Assembly: GCF_000024025.1 (NCBI RefSeq)
Contig: NC_013131.1
Location: forward strand, 1,302,001 to 1,366,000
Direction of reading: 5' to 3'
Origin: Catenulispora acidiphila DSM 44928
GTDB lineage: Bacteria > Actinomycetota > Actinomycetes > Streptomycetales > Catenulisporaceae
DNA length: 64,000 nt
The number at the start of each line of letters is the position of its first letter. Position 1 is the first letter of the stretch. Below are positions 15,631 through 23,445 of the stretch, piece by piece. The notes below the pieces were generated by a model. It made no database searches. It saw only the letters and a program-made list of their open reading frames with translations, and had not been told where the DNA came from. The translations under genes and the position numbers were made by a program.

Positions 15631-16623
15631 GTGATCGACAGCGAGTGCGCCGCGCTGCGGCAGTGGGGCGGGCTGCCCGTGTTCACCCTGCCGGGCCAGG
15701 ACCTCGAGGACTTGGCGGACTGGCCCGGCGACGTCGAGGTCCCGGCCGACACCGCGTCCTGGGCCTGGCGCGTGGAGGTCACGGAGTTCGACGGTCTGGA
15801 CTATCTGGAGCTCTTCGACGCCTTCCTGCGCACGATGGACACCGCCGCCACCGCCGCCATCACTGCCTTCATCGTCGGCAACTGGGTCACCAGCGACACG
15901 ATGAGCCTCACTTCCGCGGACGTCTTCGCACCCCTGGTAGCCGCCGCCGACCGCTTCCCGAACCTGCGCCACCTGTTCCTCGCCGACATCGAGGCGGGGC
16001 AGTTCGAGATCTCCTGGATCAAACACAGCGACCTGACGCCTCTCCTGCGCGCCTTCCCGAAGCTTCAGACCTTCGGCGTACGCGGCAGCGAGAACCTCGC
16101 CTGGGAGCAGCGTGCCTATCCCGAACTCAGGGAACTGACATTCCAGAGCGGCGGCCTCCCCCCGGCGGTGGTCCGCGCGGTCGCCGCCTCGGAGTTCCCA
16201 GAACTGACCGACCTGGAGCTCTACCTCGGCGACGCAGAGTACTTCGGCGGCTCCGAGCCAACAGACCTCGCGGGCATCCTGGAAGGCACCACCTTCCCCA
16301 AGCTCCGCTACCTGGGCCTGCGCGACGCCGAGAACGCCGACGACATCGCGGCCGCAGTGGCCCACGCCCCGATCGTGTCACGCCTGGAGGTCCTCGACCT
16401 CTCCCTGGGTACCCTCGGCGACGAGGGAGCGGCGGCACTCCTCGCAGGCCAGCCATTGACCCACCTGAAGAAGCTCGACCTCCACCACCACTTCATCTCC
16501 GAGCCCATGCAAGAACGCCTCCGCGAGGCCCTCCCCGGAGTCGACCTGGACCTCTCCCGCCACGAGGAACCCGACCAATGGGACGACGGCGAGGAGAACC
16601 GATTCGTCTCGGTCGCCGAGTAG
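15631..16623 (+). CDS. STM4015-family leucine-rich-repeat-like protein, copy 1
   Basis: A 330-residue soluble protein of the STM4015 family, named after a Salmonella Typhimurium locus. It has an N-terminal segment (WGGLPVFTLPGQ), a Trp/Asp-rich middle, then irregular leucine-rich repeats: FPNLRHLFLADI, FPKLQTFGVRG, YPELRELTFQSGGLP, FPELTDLELYLGD, FPKLRYLGLRDA, LEVLDLSLGTLGDEGAAALLAG and LKKLDLHHHFIS. The last two modules are the best conserved. No enzyme motif is present, so it may be a scaffold, recognition subunit or the substrate of the downstream enzymes (inference). GTG 15631 is preceded by GGAGG at 15619-15623. It heads a same-strand run through STM4011, with the remnant and copy 2 following closely. 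Confidence 0.85.
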   Translation: MIDSECAALRQWGGLPVFTLPGQDLEDLADWPGDVEVPADTASWAWRVEVTEFDGLDYLELFDAFLRTMDTAATAAITAFIVGNWVTSDTMSLTSADVFAPLVAAADRFPNLRHLFLADIEAGQFEISWIKHSDLTPLLRAFPKLQTFGVRGSENLAWEQRAYPELRELTFQSGGLPPAVVRAVAASEFPELTDLELYLGDAEYFGGSEPTDLAGILEGTTFPKLRYLGLRDAENADDIAAAVAHAPIVSRLEVLDLSLGTLGDEGAAALLAGQPLTHLKKLDLHHHFISEPMQERLREALPGVDLDLSRHEEPDQWDDGEENRFVSVAE

Positions 16624-16632
16624 GCGGCGGCG

Positions 16633-16911
16633 ATGCGGCTGACCATGCGACTCAGGGGGCAGCTGGCGGAGTTCGGCGGGTTGCCGGTGGCGGCGTATCC
16701 GCCGCATCCGGACGCGGCTTGGTTTCCGGGCGCGGCGGCGCCGCTCGCCGGCCAGCCGCCAGCGCACCTGCGGACGCTGGACCTGAGGCACCACTTCATC
16801 TCCGCCGAGATGCGGAACCGGCTGCGCGCCGCGTGGCCGGGCGTCGATATCGACCTGTCCCTTGCCCGAAGCGATTCCCCGAGACCCCGCGCTGGCGCGG
16901 TGGCGGAGTGA
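16633..16911 (+). pseudogene. Internally deleted STM4015-family remnant
   Basis: This open frame of 92 codons joins two ends of an STM4015 protein. Residues about 9-30 (GQLAEFGGLPVAAYPPHPDA) match the family N-terminus, and residues about 37-75 (LAGQPPAHLRTLDLRHHFIS followed by a MRNRLRAAWPGVDIDLS segment) match the last leucine-rich module; it even ends in the VAE shared by both intact copies. Roughly 220-230 residues of the middle are missing, and the frame is kept. It lies between copies 1 and 2, ten bases after one and two bases before the other. It may be translated as a mini-protein, but it is best read as a decayed third paralogue. Confidence 0.75.
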
Positions 16912-16913
16912 CC

Positions 16914-17885
16914 ATGTCTTTCTACGAGCACATCACAGAGTTCGCCGGTCGGCCGGTCGTGGACTTCCCCGCCGACCCCGCGCTGCCGACGCCGGCCGAG
17001 GCCGCCGATCCCGGCGCCGTGGCCTGGCGCCTCGACTGCAACAAGGACGGCGAGTACTTCGACCTCGACTTCCCCGACCTGCTCGCGGCGTTCCTCGAGC
17101 GGGTACCGAGTACCTGCGTCGAGGCGCTGGTCACCGGGCAGTGGCTGGAGTGGGGCGAGGACGACTGCACCGTCGTGCGCGATCTGGTCGCGGTCGCCGA
17201 CCGGCTGCCGGCGTTGCGGGCGCTGTTCTTCAATGACCTGATCGACGAGCAGAGCCAGCCGTCGTGGATCTACGTGCCGCAGGTGGGTCCGCTGCTGGAC
17301 GCCTTCCCGAACCTGGCTGAACTCTGGGTCCGCGGAACGCCCGAAGGCATGGTCAGTGCCGAGGGCATCAACCCTCTGATTCCAGCGACGAAACACGCCG
17401 CGCTGCGCAAGCTCGTCTTCCAGTCCGGCGGCCTGCCCGCCAGCACGGTCCGCGCCGTGGCCGAGTGCGAGTTCCCCGAGCTCACGCACCTGGAGATCTA
17501 CCTCGGCGACCCGAACTATGGCGGCGACGCGACCGTCGCAGACCTCGCTCCCCTCCTAGAAGCAGGACGCTTCCCCCGCCTGCGGCATCTCGGGCTGAAG
17601 GACTCCACGATCCAGGACGCCGTGGCAGCGGCAGTCGCGCAGGCGCCGGTCGTCGCGCAGCTGGAAACGCTGGACCTGTCCCTGGGAACGCTTGGCGACG
17701 AAGGTGCGGCGGCGCTGCTCGCCGGGCAGCCGCTCGACCACCTGCGCCGGCTGGACCTGAGCCACCACTACCTCTCGCCGCAGATGCAGAGCCGGGTACG
17801 GCAGGCGTGGCCGACCGTCGAGATCGACCTGTCCGACGCTCAGCGCGAGGATCGATGGGGTCGGTACATCGCGGTGGCTGAATGA
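16914..17885 (+). CDS. STM4015-family leucine-rich-repeat-like protein, copy 2
   Basis: A 323-residue paralogue of copy 1 with the same order of elements: MSFYEHITEFAGRPVVDFPADPALP at the N-terminus, VAWRLDCNKDGEYFD, then repeats FPNLAELWVRGT, HAALRKLVFQSGGLP, FPELTHLEIYLGDPNYGG, FPRLRHLGLKDS, LETLDLSLGTLGDEGAAALLAG and LRRLDLSHHYLS. It is the more typical family member at the N-terminus (the HITEFAGRPVVDF opening is family-like). ATG 16914 has GGAG at 16905-16908. Its stop overlaps the ATG of the ATP-grasp gene (ATGA), which ties it functionally to the enzymes downstream. Confidence 0.88.
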   Translation: MSFYEHITEFAGRPVVDFPADPALPTPAEAADPGAVAWRLDCNKDGEYFDLDFPDLLAAFLERVPSTCVEALVTGQWLEWGEDDCTVVRDLVAVADRLPALRALFFNDLIDEQSQPSWIYVPQVGPLLDAFPNLAELWVRGTPEGMVSAEGINPLIPATKHAALRKLVFQSGGLPASTVRAVAECEFPELTHLEIYLGDPNYGGDATVADLAPLLEAGRFPRLRHLGLKDSTIQDAVAAAVAQAPVVAQLETLDLSLGTLGDEGAAALLAGQPLDHLRRLDLSHHYLSPQMQSRVRQAWPTVEIDLSDAQREDRWGRYIAVAE

Positions 17886-18958
17886 GAGCCCTGAGCACCC
17901 CGACGTTCCCGCTGCGCTTCGCCGTCGTCGGAAACCCGGACAACCGCCGGGTGACGCTGTTCGCCGACGCCGTCCGCGAGGAAGGCTTGCCCGAGCCGCG
18001 GATCGTGCCGTGGCTCGACGTGCTGCGCGGCGACGCCGAGTTCCACTCCGGCGAGTTGGTCCGCGTCGACTCCCCAGGCGAGGACGCCGAGGTGACCCGG
18101 CTGCTGCGCGGCTCGGACGAGCCGATCGACATGTACCGCGTCGAGGGCACGCGGCAGTGGTATCAGGGTTTTGCCACAGTCCTGGAGAAGCTGGAGCACG
18201 CGATCGACGACGCCGGCGCGGCACGACTGTTCACCGCGCAAGGCGTGGCCACCGCCTTCGACAAGCAGGCGACGCACGCGCTACTGACCGACGCGGGTGT
18301 ACCCGTGCCGCCAGTCGCCGCACCAGACGGCACGGAGTCGGCGTTCATCAAGATCCGGCACGGCTCCTCGGCATCCGGCGTCGTCGCCATGACCGTGCGC
18401 GGTCCGCGGCGGCGCGCGGTGACCTCGGCCGAGCTGGTACGCACCGAGACCGGCATCGAGCTCTACAACTCGCTGACCGTCCGTACCTACCTGCGCGACG
18501 AGGACATCGACGACGTCCTCGCCGTCCTCGGACGCGACGGGCTCCACGCCGAGCGCTGGGTCCGCAAGCTGAGCATCGCCGGACGCGGCTGCGACCTGCG
18601 TGTCGTCACAATCGGCGGACGTGCCGCGCATGCCGTCGTGCGCACCAGCACGTCCCCGATGACGAACCTGCACCTTGGCGGACAGCGCGGCGATCTGGCA
18701 GCGTTCCAGGCACTGGTCGGAGAGAAGCGCTGGCTGACGATCCTCGACATCGTGGAGTCGGCGGCGGCGTGCTTCCCCGGCGTGCACTGCCTCGGGATCG
18801 ACGTGCTGCCCGGCGCCGACGGTCTCGACCGCATCGGCGAGGTCAACGCCTACGGCGACCTCCTGCCGAACCTCATGGGACTTCCGGGCACCCCCTGGGA
18901 AGGCGTCGGTACCTACCGCGCCCAAGTACGTTCGCTGATAGGCCGCCACGCACCATGA
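17882..18958 (+). CDS. STM4014-family ATP-grasp protein
   Basis: A 358-residue protein of the STM4014 family. After an N-terminal pre-ATP-grasp Rossmann-like region (FAVVGNPDNRRVTLFADAVREEG) comes an ATP-grasp body: TAFDKQATHALLTDAGVPVPP, FIKIRHGSSASGVVAM (the Lys and Gly-rich loop of the large ATP-binding loop) and, near the end, HCLGIDVLPGADGLDRIGEVNAYGDLLPNL, where Asp and Glu-x-Asn are the metal ligands. ATP-grasp enzymes join a carboxylate to an amine or thiol through an acyl phosphate, so this is the likely ligase of the cluster. The start overlaps the previous stop and the end overlaps the next start (ATGA at both), a fully coupled operon. Acceptor and donor are unknown. Confidence 0.88.
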   Translation: MRALSTPTFPLRFAVVGNPDNRRVTLFADAVREEGLPEPRIVPWLDVLRGDAEFHSGELVRVDSPGEDAEVTRLLRGSDEPIDMYRVEGTRQWYQGFATVLEKLEHAIDDAGAARLFTAQGVATAFDKQATHALLTDAGVPVPPVAAPDGTESAFIKIRHGSSASGVVAMTVRGPRRRAVTSAELVRTETGIELYNSLTVRTYLRDEDIDDVLAVLGRDGLHAERWVRKLSIAGRGCDLRVVTIGGRAAHAVVRTSTSPMTNLHLGGQRGDLAAFQALVGEKRWLTILDIVESAAACFPGVHCLGIDVLPGADGLDRIGEVNAYGDLLPNLMGLPGTPWEGVGTYRAQVRSLIGRHAP

Positions 18959-19779
18959 CCAGACCCAGCATGCACTCGATCGTCGGGAGTCACGACCTCC
19001 TGTTCGTCACCCTCGACACCCTCCGCCACGACGTCGCCGTCGAAGAACTCGCCGCCGGCCGCCTCCCGAACCTCGCCCGAGTCCTTCCCGACGGCTGGGA
19101 GCGGCGGCACACGCCGGGCTCGTTCACCTTCGCCGCGCACTCCGCGTTCTTCGCAGGCTTCCTGCCGACGCCGGACACGCCAGGGCGGCATCCGCGGTTG
19201 TTCGCCGCACGCTTCGGCGGCAGCGAGACCACAGCCGAGGACACCTGGGTGTTCGACGAGCCGGATCTGGTCGCCGGGCTGCGCAAAGCCGGGTACCGGA
19301 CCGTCTGCGTCGGGGGAGTGGGGTTCTTCAATCCGGAGAGCCGGCTCGGGCAGGTGCTGCCGGGTTACTTCGACGAGTCCCACTGGTCGGCGGCGACCGG
19401 CGTGACCGACCCGGATTCTTTCGCCCACCAGGTCGGCGTCGTGGAGCAGGTGGTCGCGGCGCAGCCGGAGGAGCAGCCGCTGTTCCTGTTCGTGAACGTC
19501 CCGGCTCTGCACCAGCCGAACTGGTTCTATCTCGACGGCGCGACCAAGGACGCCGGTGACACGCGCGCGTCGCACGCGGCGGCTTTGCGTTACGTGGACA
19601 CGCACATCGGGCGGCTGTTCACGCTCATGGCGGCGCGCCGCGCGTGCTTCACCATCGTCTGCTCCGACCACGGAACCGCCTACGGCGAGGACGGTCACGT
19701 CGGGCATCGCATCGGCCATGACGTGGTCTGGACGGTGCCCTATGCCGATTTCGTGCTGCCGAAGGGATATGAGGGCTGA
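18955..19779 (+). CDS. STM4013/SEN3800-family hydrolase (alkaline-phosphatase superfamily)
   Basis: A 274-residue cytoplasmic member of the alkaline phosphatase/sulfatase superfamily. It has the first metal Asp in LLFVTLDTLRHD (Asp21), a nucleophile region GSFTFAAHSAFFAGFLP with Ser56/Thr58 as candidates, and the second metal set in CSDHGTAYGEDGHVGHRIGH (Asp238, His239, His248, His251). There is no Cys-x-Pro-x-Arg formylglycine motif, so a sulfatase that depends on formylglycine is unlikely; phosphatase, phosphodiesterase or phosphotransferase chemistry fits better. No signal peptide. ATG 18955 overlaps the ATP-grasp stop, and its own TGA overlaps the next ATG (TGATG). Confidence 0.87.
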   Translation: MTRPSMHSIVGSHDLLFVTLDTLRHDVAVEELAAGRLPNLARVLPDGWERRHTPGSFTFAAHSAFFAGFLPTPDTPGRHPRLFAARFGGSETTAEDTWVFDEPDLVAGLRKAGYRTVCVGGVGFFNPESRLGQVLPGYFDESHWSAATGVTDPDSFAHQVGVVEQVVAAQPEEQPLFLFVNVPALHQPNWFYLDGATKDAGDTRASHAAALRYVDTHIGRLFTLMAARRACFTIVCSDHGTAYGEDGHVGHRIGHDVVWTVPYADFVLPKGYEG

Positions 19780-21116
19780 TGCTGAACGGTCCCTACGAGT
19801 CCTACGTGTACGCCTATCCGCACAAGACGGCGTATCGGCCGCTCGTGCCGAAGCCGCTGCTGTCCGACGTCTGGCGCGGCGAGGGTCGCGATGCGCTCTC
19901 CTTTTATACGCATATCCCGTTCTGTGAAGTCCGCTGTGGTTTCTGCAACCTGTTCACTCGAACCGGCGCGCCGGAGTCGCTGACGACGGCGTACCTCGAC
20001 GCTTTGGAACGGCAGGCGATCGCGGTCCGTGCGGCGCTGGACGAATCCGGTCCCGCGCCCCGCTTCGCCAACGCGGCGATCGGTGGCGGCACGCCGACGT
20101 ATCTGAGCCCTGATGAGCTTTCGCGGCTGTTCGACATCGCCGAGAAGGTGGTCGGCGTCGGTCTCGGCGCGATCCCGTTGTCCGTCGAGGCGTCGCCGGC
20201 GACCGCCACCCCCGACCGGCTGACGGTGCTCGCCGAGCGCGGGACGACGCGGCTCAGCCTGGGCGTGCAGAGCTTCGATGACGTCGAAGCCCGCTCGGCG
20301 GTGCGTCCGCAGAAGGCAGCTGACGTCTTCGCCGCTCTGGACGCCGTCCGCGCCGCCGACATCCCGGTGTTGAACGTCGATCTGATCTACGGCATCGAGG
20401 GGCAGACCCGCGAGTCTTGGCGGGCTTCCCTTCAGACAGCTTTGCGCTGGATGCCGGAGGAGATCTATCTCTATCCGCTTTATGTCAGACCACTGACCGG
20501 TCTCGGTCGACTGAACCTGAACCATGACGCCGAGTGGGACGCGCAGCGTTTGGATCTCTACCGCTGCGGCCGCGATTTCCTGCTGGAGAACGGCTACGAG
20601 CAAGTGTCCATGCGGATGTTCCGCCGCCTGGACGCGCCGGTCGTCGAGGGCGGCGAGGACTACGCCTGCCAGACGGACGGCATGATCGGTCTGGGCTGCG
20701 GCGCACGGTCGTATACCGCGTCGCTGCACTACTCCTTCGACTACGCGGTCTCGGCGTCGGAAGTGCGCGGGATCATCGACGAGTACGTTGCGACCACCGA
20801 CTTCAGCCGCGTCGAGGTCGGCTATCGGCTCGATGCGGATGAGCAGGCACGCAGGTTCCTGATTCAGTCGCTGCTTCAAGCGGACGGGATGGAGCGGGGC
20901 GACGCGGTTGAGCGCTTCAGTGCGGAGCTGGCGTTGCTGAACGACCGCGGCTTCCTGGAGTCGGTGTCGGATCGGGCATCGGCTTCGGCATCGGCTTCAG
21001 GAGCAGACGGTCGGCTGCGGCTCACCCCCGAAGGCCTCGCATGGTCCGATGCGGTCGGCCCGATGTTCTTCTCCGAGCAGGTGCGCGCCGCGATGCGCGC
21101 CTACGAGCTGAAGTAG
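19779..21116 (+). CDS. STM4012-family radical SAM protein (HemN/coproporphyrinogen-oxidase-like)
   Basis: A 445-residue radical SAM enzyme. The Fe-S motif is C49-x3-C53-x2-C56 in HIPFCEVRCGFCNLFTR, followed by the HemN-like AIGGGTPTYLSPDEL, LSVEASPATATPDRL and RLSLGVQSFDD. The C-terminal HemN-like domain is recognisable (YRLDADEQARRFLIQSLLQADGM). It resembles oxygen-independent coproporphyrinogen oxidase and HemW, but belongs to the cluster-specific STM4012 family rather than heme biosynthesis. It would use S-adenosylmethionine to generate a 5'-deoxyadenosyl radical; the HemN-type fold can also support methyl transfer with two SAM molecules. It begins inside the TGATG overlap with the hydrolase gene. 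The natural substrate is not known. Confidence 0.9.
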   Translation: MLNGPYESYVYAYPHKTAYRPLVPKPLLSDVWRGEGRDALSFYTHIPFCEVRCGFCNLFTRTGAPESLTTAYLDALERQAIAVRAALDESGPAPRFANAAIGGGTPTYLSPDELSRLFDIAEKVVGVGLGAIPLSVEASPATATPDRLTVLAERGTTRLSLGVQSFDDVEARSAVRPQKAADVFAALDAVRAADIPVLNVDLIYGIEGQTRESWRASLQTALRWMPEEIYLYPLYVRPLTGLGRLNLNHDAEWDAQRLDLYRCGRDFLLENGYEQVSMRMFRRLDAPVVEGGEDYACQTDGMIGLGCGARSYTASLHYSFDYAVSASEVRGIIDEYVATTDFSRVEVGYRLDADEQARRFLIQSLLQADGMERGDAVERFSAELALLNDRGFLESVSDRASASASASGADGRLRLTPEGLAWSDAVGPMFFSEQVRAAMRAYELK

Positions 21117-21123
21117 GGCCCTG

Positions 21124-22062
21124 ATGGAACTGTCGATTCTCTATCGCGGCCCGCTGGCGAGCTGCGACTACGACTGCGGCTACTGCCCCTTCGCCAAGCG
21201 TCGCGATTCGCCGGAGACGCTGCGCGCCGACCGCGCGGCGTTGGAGCGGTTCGTCGCGTGGGTCATCGCGCAATCCGAGGACCAAATCAATGTTCTGTTC
21301 ACGCCCTGGGGAGAGGGACTGACCCGGAGCTGGTACCAGCGCGCCTTGGTCGAGCTCAGCCGCCTCGATCACGTCGGCGAGGTGGCGATTCAGACCAATC
21401 TGAGTTCGCGGACCGCGTGGACGGCGGGCGCCGACCTGGATTCGCTGGCGCTGTGGTGCACGTACCATCCCGACCAGGTTTCTTACGAGCGCTTCCTCGG
21501 CCGCTGCCATGAGCTGCGGGATAGCGGCGTCCGCTTCAGCACCGGGATCGTCGGGCTGCCGGAGCACCTGGACGCTGCCCGGCGTCTGCGCGCCGACCTT
21601 CCCGACGATGTCTATCTGTGGGTCAACGCCGCCGAGGGACATACCTACACCGACGAGGAAGCCGAGCCCTGGGCCGAGATCGATCCGCTGTTCCCGGTCT
21701 CGCGCTTTCCCCATGCCTCGCAGGGGCACGCCTGCCGTGCGGGGGAGTCGGTCATCTCGGTCGACGGCGACGGCGAGGTCTACCGCTGCCACTTCGTCTC
21801 GCGCACGGAACCTACGGAGAGGCTCGGAAACCTTTACGACGGCTCATATCGCCAGGCGCTGCGGGCGCGTCTGTGCCCTCTGACCCAGTGCGACTGCCAC
21901 ATCGGCTACGTGCACATGCCGGAGCTCGGGCTCTACGACACGTTCGCCGGCGGGGTCCTGGCTCGGATCCCCGCCGGCGCGACTGTGCTCAGACCTGAAC
22001 CTGTGCTCAAGCCCGTACCTCTGCTCAAGTCTGCCGGAGCGGCTGGTACTCGTCCTCGGTGA
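21124..22062 (+). CDS. STM4011-family radical SAM protein with Cys-rich C-terminus
   Basis: A 312-residue radical SAM protein with the cluster motif C14-x3-C18-x2-C21 (SCDYDCGYCPFAKR) near the N-terminus. The C-terminal part adds Cys204 (HACRAG), Cys222 (YRCHF), Cys251, Cys256 and Cys258 (RLCPLTQCDCHIGYVH), a spacing reminiscent of SPASM/twitch auxiliary Fe-S clusters found in peptide-modifying radical SAM enzymes. That makes a protein or peptide substrate possible (inference). ATG 21124 starts seven bases after the STM4012 stop with AGGGCCCTG upstream. Its 3' end runs 38 bp into the convergent DUF6745-type gene. Last gene of the STM operon. Confidence 0.9.
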   Translation: MELSILYRGPLASCDYDCGYCPFAKRRDSPETLRADRAALERFVAWVIAQSEDQINVLFTPWGEGLTRSWYQRALVELSRLDHVGEVAIQTNLSSRTAWTAGADLDSLALWCTYHPDQVSYERFLGRCHELRDSGVRFSTGIVGLPEHLDAARRLRADLPDDVYLWVNAAEGHTYTDEEAEPWAEIDPLFPVSRFPHASQGHACRAGESVISVDGDGEVYRCHFVSRTEPTERLGNLYDGSYRQALRARLCPLTQCDCHIGYVHMPELGLYDTFAGGVLARIPAGATVLRPEPVLKPVPLLKSAGAAGTRPR

Positions 22063-23101
22063 GGCCGAAGGTCCAGGCGACGCCGGCCTTCGCGGTCAGC
22101 ATGCTGGGCGGCACGCGCAGGAAGTAGACGTTGAACGTGCCGTCCGGCTCCGGCGAGGAGTTCACCACCTCGACCAGGACGATGGACTCGTCGTCGCCCA
22201 TCGCGATCCGCCACAGCTTGCCGGCCTCGTCCTCCTGGACCGGCTGCGCGCCGGACTCCTTCAGGAAGCGCTCCGGCGTGTAGTGCTCGACCATGATCCG
22301 GCGCAGCTCGGCGTTCTCCTCCGCGCGGATGGTGTCCGGGCTGGTCGCGGCTAGGCGCCGGCCGAACTCCTCGGTCAGCGGAGTGCCGCGCCAGGAGTAC
22401 ACGGCGAAGCCGTCGGCGTAGACCAGCGCGGGTCCGTCGCCGTGGTGCAGCCGATCCTGGTCGTCCAGGCGGAGCGCGAGCGGGCGCTCGGTGAGGATGA
22501 CCGCGTTCTCGAACGGCCACCACCAGCCCGCCGAGCGCGCCATCCGGCCCAGGCCGCACGCCATGCCGGAGGCTTCGTAGAGCGGGAGCCAGGAGGCGTC
22601 GAACTGGCCGTGGACAGCGTGGGTCAGGGCGATGCGCAGGGCGGTGCGCTCGGCGATGTCCTCGGGATCGGCGTGCTCCTCCACGGCGGTGGCGATGCGC
22701 GCGATCAGGGTGCTGATCAGCGGGGCGAGGTCGCCGCACGCCGCCTGCCAGACCCGGCCGAACTCGCGCGGGCCGAGGCGTTCGGCGAGCCGGGCGCGGC
22801 CCACCGACCAGGTCAGGTCCCTGACACGGTCGCGCGCGGGGGCGCCGAGGCGCTCGGCGTCGGCGGCCACCAGGCGCGCGGCTTCCAAGGGGGAGCGGCA
22901 CCAGATGATCTCCGGCGGCGCCGAGTCCGGCAGGGACTCGGCGTAGAGCCGGAGCACCGTCTCCTCGGTCGCCTGCCGGTCGACAGCCTCGGTGGACAAG
23001 GCGATCGCGCGCCAGGCGTCCCGCGTGGCGGCGGCGACCGCGACGATGCCGTCGGCGGTCAGGTCGGGGTGCGGGGTCACGTCGATCGCGGTGGCCGGCA
23101 T
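22025..23101 (-). CDS. DUF6745-type protein of unknown function
   Basis: A 358-residue soluble protein. The middle and C-terminal parts resemble the DUF6745 family: GWWWPFENAVILTERPLALRLDDQDRLHHGDGPALVYADGFAVYSWRGTPLTEEF, then TIRAEENAELRRIMVEHYTPERFL and a beta-rich end (LWRIAMGDDESIVLVEVVNSSPEPDGTFNVYFLRVPP). The N-terminal half is helical and Ala/Arg/Glu-rich. No catalytic motif can be recognised. It starts at an ATG (complement of 23099-23101) that overlaps the stop of the small gene upstream, so the two proteins are probably made together. Family members often sit beside short proteins of the same kind. Confidence 0.75.
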   Translation of the reverse strand: MPATAIDVTPHPDLTADGIVAVAAATRDAWRAIALSTEAVDRQATEETVLRLYAESLPDSAPPEIIWCRSPLEAARLVAADAERLGAPARDRVRDLTWSVGRARLAERLGPREFGRVWQAACGDLAPLISTLIARIATAVEEHADPEDIAERTALRIALTHAVHGQFDASWLPLYEASGMACGLGRMARSAGWWWPFENAVILTERPLALRLDDQDRLHHGDGPALVYADGFAVYSWRGTPLTEEFGRRLAATSPDTIRAEENAELRRIMVEHYTPERFLKESGAQPVQEDEAGKLWRIAMGDDESIVLVEVVNSSPEPDGTFNVYFLRVPPSMLTAKAGVAWTFGLTEDEYQPLRQT

Positions 23102-23445
23102 CAGTCCGCCACCACCCGGAACGAGCGCAGCGCGCTGGGCTCGTACTCGCGCTGGCGGACCACCTTGAACCAGCCCTCCGGCAGCGGGATCGTGCCGTGC
23201 TCCTCGTGCACGACCTTGCCGCCGTACGGCAGGAACACGTACGCCGGCTCGCTCTCGCTCGGGGCGGGGTAGAAGTCGCCCTCGTCCCGGGTGGCGACCA
23301 GCGCGTGCGCGTGGCCGGTGCTCTCCCCGAGCGCCAGCACCATCGACTCGCGGGGGCGGCGGTTCTTCGGCCCGGCGGCGCGCGCCCCTTCCGGGACCGC
23401 GCTCTCCGTGACCGGCACGATCAGTACGTCTCCTTGGCGGTACAC
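23101..23445 (-). CDS. Small conserved hypothetical protein, coupled to the DUF6745-type gene
   Basis: A 114-residue beta-rich protein starting MYRQGDVLIVPVTES and containing VLALGESTGHAHALVATRDEGDFYP, YVFLPYGGKVVHEEHGTIPLPEGWFKVVRQREYEP. The GDVLIxPV start, GE-x-TGHAH core and EEHGxIPLxxG-x-F/Y motif recur in short bacterial and phage proteins; the clustered histidines look like a cupin-type metal or ligand site (inference). The GTG start at 23445 has an excellent GAGGAGG upstream (complement of 23451-23457). Its stop overlaps the next gene's start (ATGA). No function is assigned. Confidence 0.75.
   Translation of the reverse strand: MYRQGDVLIVPVTESAVPEGARAAGPKNRRPRESMVLALGESTGHAHALVATRDEGDFYPAPSESEPAYVFLPYGGKVVHEEHGTIPLPEGWFKVVRQREYEPSALRSFRVVAD

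Follow-up and report, generated by a model that had tools for sequence, protein, structure and literature searches.

What does a gene cluster do when its five families, STM4011 to STM4015, are known by little more than their tags? The question is raised by a 64,000-nucleotide stretch of Catenulispora acidiphila DSM 44928 (contig NC_013131.1, positions 1,302,001 to 1,366,000 of the forward strand; hereafter the window, meaning this whole stretch), in which seven genes run on the plus strand in the order STM4015a, a shortened STM4015, STM4015b, STM4014, STM4013, STM4012, and STM4011. The cluster is borne by Salmonella, some Escherichia coli, Bacteroides, Deinococcus, and many actinomycetes, yet it is uncharacterized, and the available parts of the open-licence literature searched carry the tags only as single table mentions (PMC3844500, PMC2784778). 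Here we describe a short C-terminal tail on the leucine-rich repeat (LRR) protein STM4015 that ends in glutamate, and we propose that the ATP-grasp ligase STM4014 loads this terminal Glu. Judged from sequence comparison and from analogy with known carrier systems, we give the proposal an even prospect of being right, whatever the fate of the product. The families themselves were already named; the tail is newly described, with no report of it found in the open-licence literature searched, and it names the likely site of chemistry.

The C-terminal tail of STM4015

The last seven residues of STM4015 proteins, immediately before the stop codon, form a tail with the pattern R-[YF]-[VI]-A-V-[SAG]-E. 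Among matches of at least 60 bits (L001-L006 and L137 left out as duplicates), the terminal Glu is present in 158 of 162 sequences and in 36 of the 37 clusters formed at 60% identity. Entropy is 0.18 bits at this last residue, compared with 0.76 to 1.95 at the other tail residues and 2.79 to 3.49 over the preceding 11, and a ten-sequence alignment has six invariant columns, the terminal Glu among them. When 43 sequences are aligned, identity between pairs averages 56.6% over residues 1 to 300, 36.5% in the linker, and 69.8% in the tail. The terminal Glu is found in six phyla, namely Actinomycetota, Pseudomonadota (Methylobacterium, Salmonella, and E. coli), Bacteroidota, Bacillota (Paenibacillus), Deinococcota, and Cyanobacteriota (Calothrix). 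At the level of sequence comparison, STM4015 is distinguished by a kept end that a variable linker divides from the fold and that holds across these six phyla.

The same end persists where STM4015 is isolated or damaged. Copies lying away from a full cluster end in Glu in 16 of 17 cases, among them a Calothrix copy (CSVAE) and a truncated copy with 131 amino acids, and in genome G303 the sole STM4015 beside the cluster is a shortened protein (174 amino acids by open frame) with its tail kept. In the window, the shortened STM4015 still has the FGGLPV motif of the N-terminus, the final repeat, and VAE as its end. Because both its ends match one full-length Catenulispora rubra gene (L039), at 85% and 76%, this remnant is by sequence what an internal deletion, in frame, has left of a third paralogue, the intact form of which is present in L039. 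We also considered whether the ATGA overlap with the STM4014 gene could by itself account for the terminal Glu, and rejected this explanation because the overlap fixes the third base only and because copies free of any overlap, STM4015a and those off the cluster, keep the Glu.

Two further members of the family deserve mention in their own right. A Calothrix plasmid (L141:2014-3288) encodes an STM4015-like protein whose tail reads RYCSVAE, and the 13.2 kb fetched yielded no further gene of the cluster. A Catenulispora paralogue ending in GIGA (L135:9713-10618, L136:9566-10456, and L039:2195-3076) is without the N-terminal motif and offers a natural tail-less control.

The AlphaFold2 model of STM4015b assigns a predicted local distance difference test (pLDDT) value of at least 90 to 223 of its 323 residues, with 69 and 50 for the last two blocks and the lowest value at the very end, which makes a flexible end likely in the model. 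By fold, STM4015 is an LRR protein, and it is best matched by 2RA8 of Bacteroides fragilis (30% identity, E 2.0e-19), the one relative found with a solved structure and a homologue of the Bacteroides finegoldii WGR-LRR protein. Its sequence reads YPMITE and then continues for eight residues past the natural Glu; this extension is probably a tag, and an extension of this kind may block function in any test. The B. finegoldii STM4015 itself (L038:6513-7586) carries an N-terminal WGR domain (PF05406, 65.1 bits).

Inheritance of the cluster and proposed chemistry of its enzymes

If the tail is where enzymes of the cluster act, how closely do the genes travel together? The five families are inherited nearly all-or-none. 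We compared 119 genomes of the order genome by genome, counting matches over the NCBIfam curated cut-offs, and found STM4014 in 50, STM4015 in 51, STM4011 in 51, STM4013 in 50, and STM4012 in 52. All five families occur in the same 50 genomes, one family only in 4, and none in 65. The single-family genomes hold STM4015 alone (G297), a partial STM4011 (G378), or STM4012 alone (G338 and G393), and remnants below the cut-off occur in a few more, for example STM4011 pieces in G297 and G339. Gene order was followed in 80 loci, the best 80 of at least 535 relatives and all from Actinobacteria; besides plasmids and E. coli, the counts given here rest on Actinobacteria. The cluster is complete in 74 of them, always in the order 15-14-13-12-11. 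Each enzyme is single copy, and STM4015 is present once (42 loci), twice (29 loci), or four, five, or six times (one locus each). Five of the six incomplete loci have the cluster at a contig start and the remaining one, L111, is decayed, with a truncated STM4014 directly before STM4011; in L040, where the cluster stands at a contig start, the roughly 1.5 kb upstream hold no STM4015 match of 60 bits.

Outside this sample, Methylobacterium, Deinococcus, Paenibacillus, Salmonella, and E. coli carry the whole cluster, either on a plasmid or on the chromosome. Of 5426 complete E. coli genomes, 154 match a stretch of the cluster taken from Salmonella, and decay is visible there: one STM4015 is annotated as frameshifted and one cluster holds an IS1 transposase. 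In B. finegoldii (L038), STM4013 and STM4012 are collapsed by deletion.

STM4014 keeps the ATP-grasp residues K157 (90/93), D307 (93/93), E320 (90/93), and N322 (92/93). Its likeness to RimK and LysX is distant, since the NCBIfam RimK-family model (3.1e-6, 26.8 bits, cut-off 143.4) and LysX model (5.7e-5, 22.3 bits, cut-off 275.6) are both matched far below their cut-offs. Profile comparison returned PDB rows at E below 0.001, all of them weak, for biotin carboxylase, RimK (5zct and 4iwx), a pyruvate carboxylase domain, LysX (1uc8 and 1uc9), and 3vpd, which is named in the PDB as an S6 modification protein and which we take to be ArgX.

The other three enzymes are equally intact in their motifs. 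STM4013 retains the active-site residues D21, T58, D238, H239, and H255 in 95 of 95 sequences; it matches Pfam Sulfatase (33.7 bits, cut-off 25), and its nearest structures are the nucleotide pyrophosphatase/phosphodiesterase 7n1s and 2gsn. STM4012 keeps the CxxxCxxC ligands C49, C53, and C56 in all 93 non-gap sequences. Its profile aligns with HemN (1olt) over positions 18 to 417 of 443 (E 3.5e-53) and with NocN (9p2u, E 3.6e-35); the scores stay under the HemN and HemW cut-offs (HemN, 126.5 versus 324.95; HemW, 133 versus 205.4). STM4011 combines a CxxxCxxC motif with five additional cysteines in 96 of 96 sequences, and has weak SPASM-region similarity to SkfB and weak similarity to an anaerobic sulfatase maturase (22.2 bits).

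An earlier, first-pass annotation of this DNA had read the cluster as a single pathway, exposed to doubt if related clusters were dispersed or lacked enzymes, or if the iron-sulfur motifs were degenerate in orthologues. The reading withstands this test: the 119 genomes have nearly always all five families or none, the 74 complete loci are uniform in order, and the cysteines of both radical S-adenosylmethionine (SAM) proteins stay intact. The description of STM4013 as phosphatase-like also stands: because the nucleophile position is Thr in every sequence, it is no formylglycine sulfatase.

How might these enzymes act together? From here we infer which of them touches the tail, what the donor is, the order of the steps, and the fate of the product. 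STM4015 would be the acceptor, or carrier, composed of a folded LRR domain, a variable acidic linker, and a constant tail ending in Glu. STM4014 would phosphorylate a carboxylate of the terminal Glu and join to it an amine, most likely that of an amino acid, in the manner of LysX and ArgX on LysW. STM4011, with its SPASM-like extra cysteines, and the HemN-like STM4012 would next alter the tail or the group it bears, and STM4013, as a Thr-nucleophile phospho- or sulfo-ester hydrolase, would act last or prepare the donor. Loading by STM4014 appears the simplest account, because the tail ends in Glu, a RimK/LysX-like ligase is encoded in the operon, single enzymes accompany one to six acceptors, and inheritance is all-or-none. 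The first-pass annotation had left STM4015 as either scaffold or substrate; the Glu tail, the one to six copies, and the off-cluster copies sharpen this to acceptor or carrier, with a pure scaffold staying as a rival. Its suggestion of a stoichiometric complex fares less well, since one to six STM4015 copies per single enzyme set fit a fixed stoichiometry poorly.

Layout of the window and neighbouring genes

The features of the window are listed in Table 1, where bits are quoted against the NCBIfam curated cut-offs; all cluster proteins lie above them except the shortened STM4015. Overlaps of 4 bp join STM4015b to STM4014 and STM4014 to STM4013, an overlap of 1 bp joins STM4013 to STM4012, and a gap of 7 bp separates STM4012 from STM4011. 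Upstream, the gaps are 9 bp between STM4015a and the remnant and 2 bp between the remnant and STM4015b. On the far side, the DUF6745 gene overlaps the 3' end of STM4011 by 38 bp. These coordinates, scores, and joints agree with the six intact genes and one remnant in a single direction, and with the four joints overlapping or within 7 bp, that had been called from the sequence at first pass; the gene list given then holds for STM4011 to STM4015 but left out DUF6745, the small gene, and a second STM4015 locus. Among public loci, those of C. rubra (90% identity in STM4011) and of a Catenulisporales bin come nearest.

Table 1. Features of the cluster and its surroundings; positions are those of the window, except for the last row, which refers to locus L068.
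Feature	Position	Strand	Evidence or remark
STM4015a, LRR protein, 330 aa	15631..16623	+	NF038076, 339.6 bits (cut-off 275)
Tail codons RFVSVAE of STM4015a	16600..16620	+	No gene overlap here
Shortened STM4015, 92 aa	16633..16911	+	40.5 bits, below cut-off; in-frame internal deletion, by sequence
STM4015b, LRR protein, 323 aa	16914..17885	+	NF038076, 319.8 bits (cut-off 275); AlphaFold2 model; fold match 2RA8
Tail codons RYIAVAE of STM4015b	17862..17882	+	C-terminal conservation; AlphaFold2 model
STM4014, ATP-grasp ligase, distantly RimK/LysX-like	17882..18958	+	344.7 bits (cut-off 175); active-site residues
STM4013, alkaline-phosphatase-superfamily hydrolase, Thr58 at nucleophile position	18955..19779	+	414.8 bits (cut-off 250)
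STM4012, HemN-like radical SAM protein	19779..21116	+	599.3 bits (cut-off 380)
STM4011, radical SAM protein, extra cysteines C204, C222, C251, C256, C258	21124..22062	+	394.7 bits (cut-off 200)
DUF6745 protein, 358 aa, convergent with STM4011	22025..23101	-	PF20530, 291.4 bits
Small protein, 114 aa, adjoins DUF6745	23101..23445	-	Sequence; RQGDV...GHAH...QREY
M23 peptidase gene	L068:11928-12959		Downstream of cluster

DUF6745 and the small gene belong to the module in most loci. By blast, DUF6745 lies beside the cluster in 71 of 89 loci and a small protein of the 114-amino-acid type in 70 of 89. The DUF6745 gene is divergent and upstream in 56 loci, convergent and downstream of STM4011 in 22 (counting L137, which duplicates the L039 contig), and on the same strand in 1. 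Because the association persists through these different arrangements, it points to a functional link with the cluster. Within the 119 genomes, DUF6745 is present in 44 of 50 with the cluster versus 3 of the 69 others, and in two of these three there is either a lone STM4015 or an STM4011 remnant. Comparison of its fold with the PDB gave nothing usable, the top results being E 0.62 with Foldseek and Z 3.9 over 68 residues with VIA; the model had been built from a frame with one extra N-terminal residue.

Recurring neighbours were counted over 81 loci, with genes filtered by base composition, so that some may be missed. DUF6745 recurs in 64 and the small protein in 55, followed by a GDSL lipase (32), a tyrosine phosphatase (31), and an M23 peptidase (28); no protease and no exporter or transporter was found to recur in most of these loci. 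The lipase, the tyrosine phosphatase, and the M23 peptidase, named from their copies in L068, lie mostly on the downstream side, and we suspect that their recurrence reflects shared synteny among related genomes.

Another partner appears outside the main sample. In B. finegoldii, STM4011 carries a fused HAD-IIB domain (L038:8968-10530), a HAD gene adjoins the cluster in Salmonella and E. coli (L037:11907-12641, L139:12842-13537, and L140:10839-11537), and another stands beside the second STM4015 of the source genome (L031:10599-11408); annotated HAD-family genes are also near L143 and L146. This association suggests a phosphate step. As a general partner HAD found no backing, as blast with three HAD sequences matched only themselves in the 89 loci.

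Several arrangements depart from the common pattern. STM4012 occurs without the remaining cluster genes in L148:7059-8456 and L149:8084-9520, each time beside an EamA-family transporter gene. On a Streptomyces albidoflavus plasmid (L036:8738-10901), the gene for an STM4013 homologue has a NUDIX hydrolase and a lasso peptide B2 protein as neighbours, and no further cluster gene is annotated there. In Yinghuangia soli (L061:6592-8457), up to 1.9 kb by open-frame ends separate STM4013 from STM4012, and five STM4015 copies are present.

Two origins or roles of a different kind were also considered. A search of a viral collection with STM4014, a single-protein query that finds close relatives only, gave no match and hence no sign of phage origin. 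PADLOC, run on six proteins with the remnant left out, returned for a defence system one weak partial match, of STM4012 to PDC-M51A (25.9 bits).

Competing readings and known systems

How well does loading of the terminal Glu withstand the observations that weigh against it? Four of the 162 STM4015 sequences lack the Glu, three being copies of the single GIGA-ending Catenulispora paralogue and the fourth an orphan of G403 (L121) that ends in Y; the tails of Salmonella and Bacteroides have drifted except for their last two residues (MNAMYTE and YYPMITE); and the STM4015 sample is dominated by Actinobacteria. In the AlphaFold2 model, low pLDDT is also seen in two internal blocks (64 and 67), and the end itself is modelled with a short helix. 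The best single PDB row for STM4014 is biotin carboxylase 9yx0, and the RimK and LysX matches are weak, with carboxylases between them. No releasing peptidase recurs in most loci, a LysW-type carboxypeptidase not having been searched for outside them. Moreover, a conserved last residue is found elsewhere in the module, as K or R in STM4012 (91/94), as T in DUF6745 (76/80), and mostly as VAD in the small protein, and these conserved ends make a structural or docking cause possible for the STM4015 tail as well.

The main rival takes up this last point: the tail would only be a docking motif, and STM4015 a scaffold or adaptor that binds an enzyme while the chemistry proceeds on a free small molecule. 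We consider this doubtful. Besides the conserved C-termini of other module proteins, it draws on the second STM4015 locus that the source genome has away from the cluster. Such second Catenulispora loci pair STM4015 with a divergent STM4014 (L031:8500-12281, L127, L131, and L153-L159), and the terminal Glu is kept in 10 of 10, whereas K157 of the ligase is changed in 9 of 9 readable sequences, E320 in 10 of 10 (to Asp in nine), and D326 in 10 of 10. Because of these changes the divergent STM4014 is probably no longer a ligase, and an intact tail beside it is what mere binding would predict and counts against loading; it may be a pseudo-ligase that reads the tail. A docking motif, however, need not stop exactly at the stop codon, and the last residue is the most constant one, even across phyla in which the rest of the motif has drifted. 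A different reading treats the tail as the core of a ribosomally synthesized and post-translationally modified peptide (RiPP), which the ATP-grasp ligase and the radical SAM enzymes would modify and which would be cut from the repeat domain. Graspetide loci frequently hold SPASM radical SAM enzymes beside ATP-grasp ligases, according to the available text of PMC8939145. The presence of several STM4015 copies for one enzyme set is reminiscent of multiple precursors, and the M23 peptidase gene is present in a part of the loci (28 of 81). The core of a RiPP usually varies while its leader is kept; here that pattern is inverted, with the end kept and the large domain varying more. Moreover, the precursor would be a folded repeat protein of about 320 amino acids in place of a short peptide with a variable core, and no protease or transporter recurs in most of the 81 loci, so that we regard the RiPP reading as unlikely.

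Even if STM4014 does load the tail, is the product kept or released? Between these outcomes we divide our belief equally, which leaves each, taken singly, a tentative proposal. A finished small molecule could be hydrolysed off, as when lysine and arginine are made on LysW or in the AmCP-dependent products of Streptomyces; this variant shares all the evidence for loading, and AmCP pathways exist in Streptomyces, as described in the accessible parts of PMC6225789 and PMC9303977. It would call for a releasing peptidase, of which no gene recurs in most loci, and a mere carrier needs neither diverse repeat domains nor off-cluster copies. We lean toward a product that the protein would retain as a prosthetic group, given a constant tail on a variable repeat domain, with one to six copies and others elsewhere per enzyme set, and given that most loci have no protease or exporter. 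STM4015 proteins could then be a new class of adaptors armed after translation, variable LRR domains that carry the same covalent C-terminal group, which STM4014 would attach to the terminal Glu and which the two radical SAM enzymes and STM4013 would complete; a single enzyme set would serve all paralogues and orphans of the cell, and DUF6745 with the small protein would read, guard, or recycle the group. We put this fuller picture forward as a possibility of low confidence. Far less probable is a pairing of STM4011, as sulfatase maturase, with STM4013, as in anaerobic sulfatase systems, to which the Pfam Sulfatase match of STM4013 and the weak maturase similarity of STM4011 might point. Formylglycine maturation needs Cys or Ser, and with Thr58 at that position in 95 of 95 sequences the pair is rejected at the motif level, unless Thr is convertible; it would also leave STM4015, STM4014, and STM4012 unexplained.

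Where, then, does the cluster stand among known systems? It has all five families of the STM4011-STM4015 cluster that NCBIfam records for Salmonella, Escherichia, and Streptomyces, in the same gene order, and relatives on plasmids and chromosomes bear these family names in their annotation. Compared with Salmonella, E. coli, and Bacteroides, the window has two full and one shortened STM4015 and a convergent DUF6745, with no HAD gene noted beside the cluster. RimK tails ribosomal protein S6 at its C-terminal Glu; the ligase fold is common to RimK and STM4014, whereas the system of the window would have dedicated acceptors in the operon and has three further enzymes. LysW is a small zinc-binding protein, and its pathways employ a kinase, a reductase, and an aminotransferase. 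In contrast, STM4015 is an LRR protein of about 320 amino acids without a LysW model match (NCBIfam gives only STM4015 for the three window copies), radical SAM enzymes take the place of the LysW-pathway enzymes in the operon, and most loci lack a release peptidase. What LysW/AmCP systems have in common with the window is an acceptor, in the window a proposed one, with a terminal Glu on a C-terminal extension, and an ATP-grasp ligase, in the window a distantly RimK-like one, LysX and ArgX acting on the terminal Glu of LysW (PMC4490483, available part). Carrier proteins are recognized by their globular domain together with the C-terminal extension, as excerpts of PMC9303977 describe. The same source, in the part available, describes pearlins, in which a carrier bears at its C-terminus an amino acid that is assembled there and that a radical SAM enzyme alters. 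Among the seven cluster proteins, in contrast, there is no PEARL model match (NCBIfam, Pfam) and no short carrier peptide. If STM4014 does load the STM4015 tail, a combination that we did not find in the open-licence literature searched would be realized here, with carrier-protein chemistry of the LysW kind joined to radical SAM chemistry on a repeat protein.

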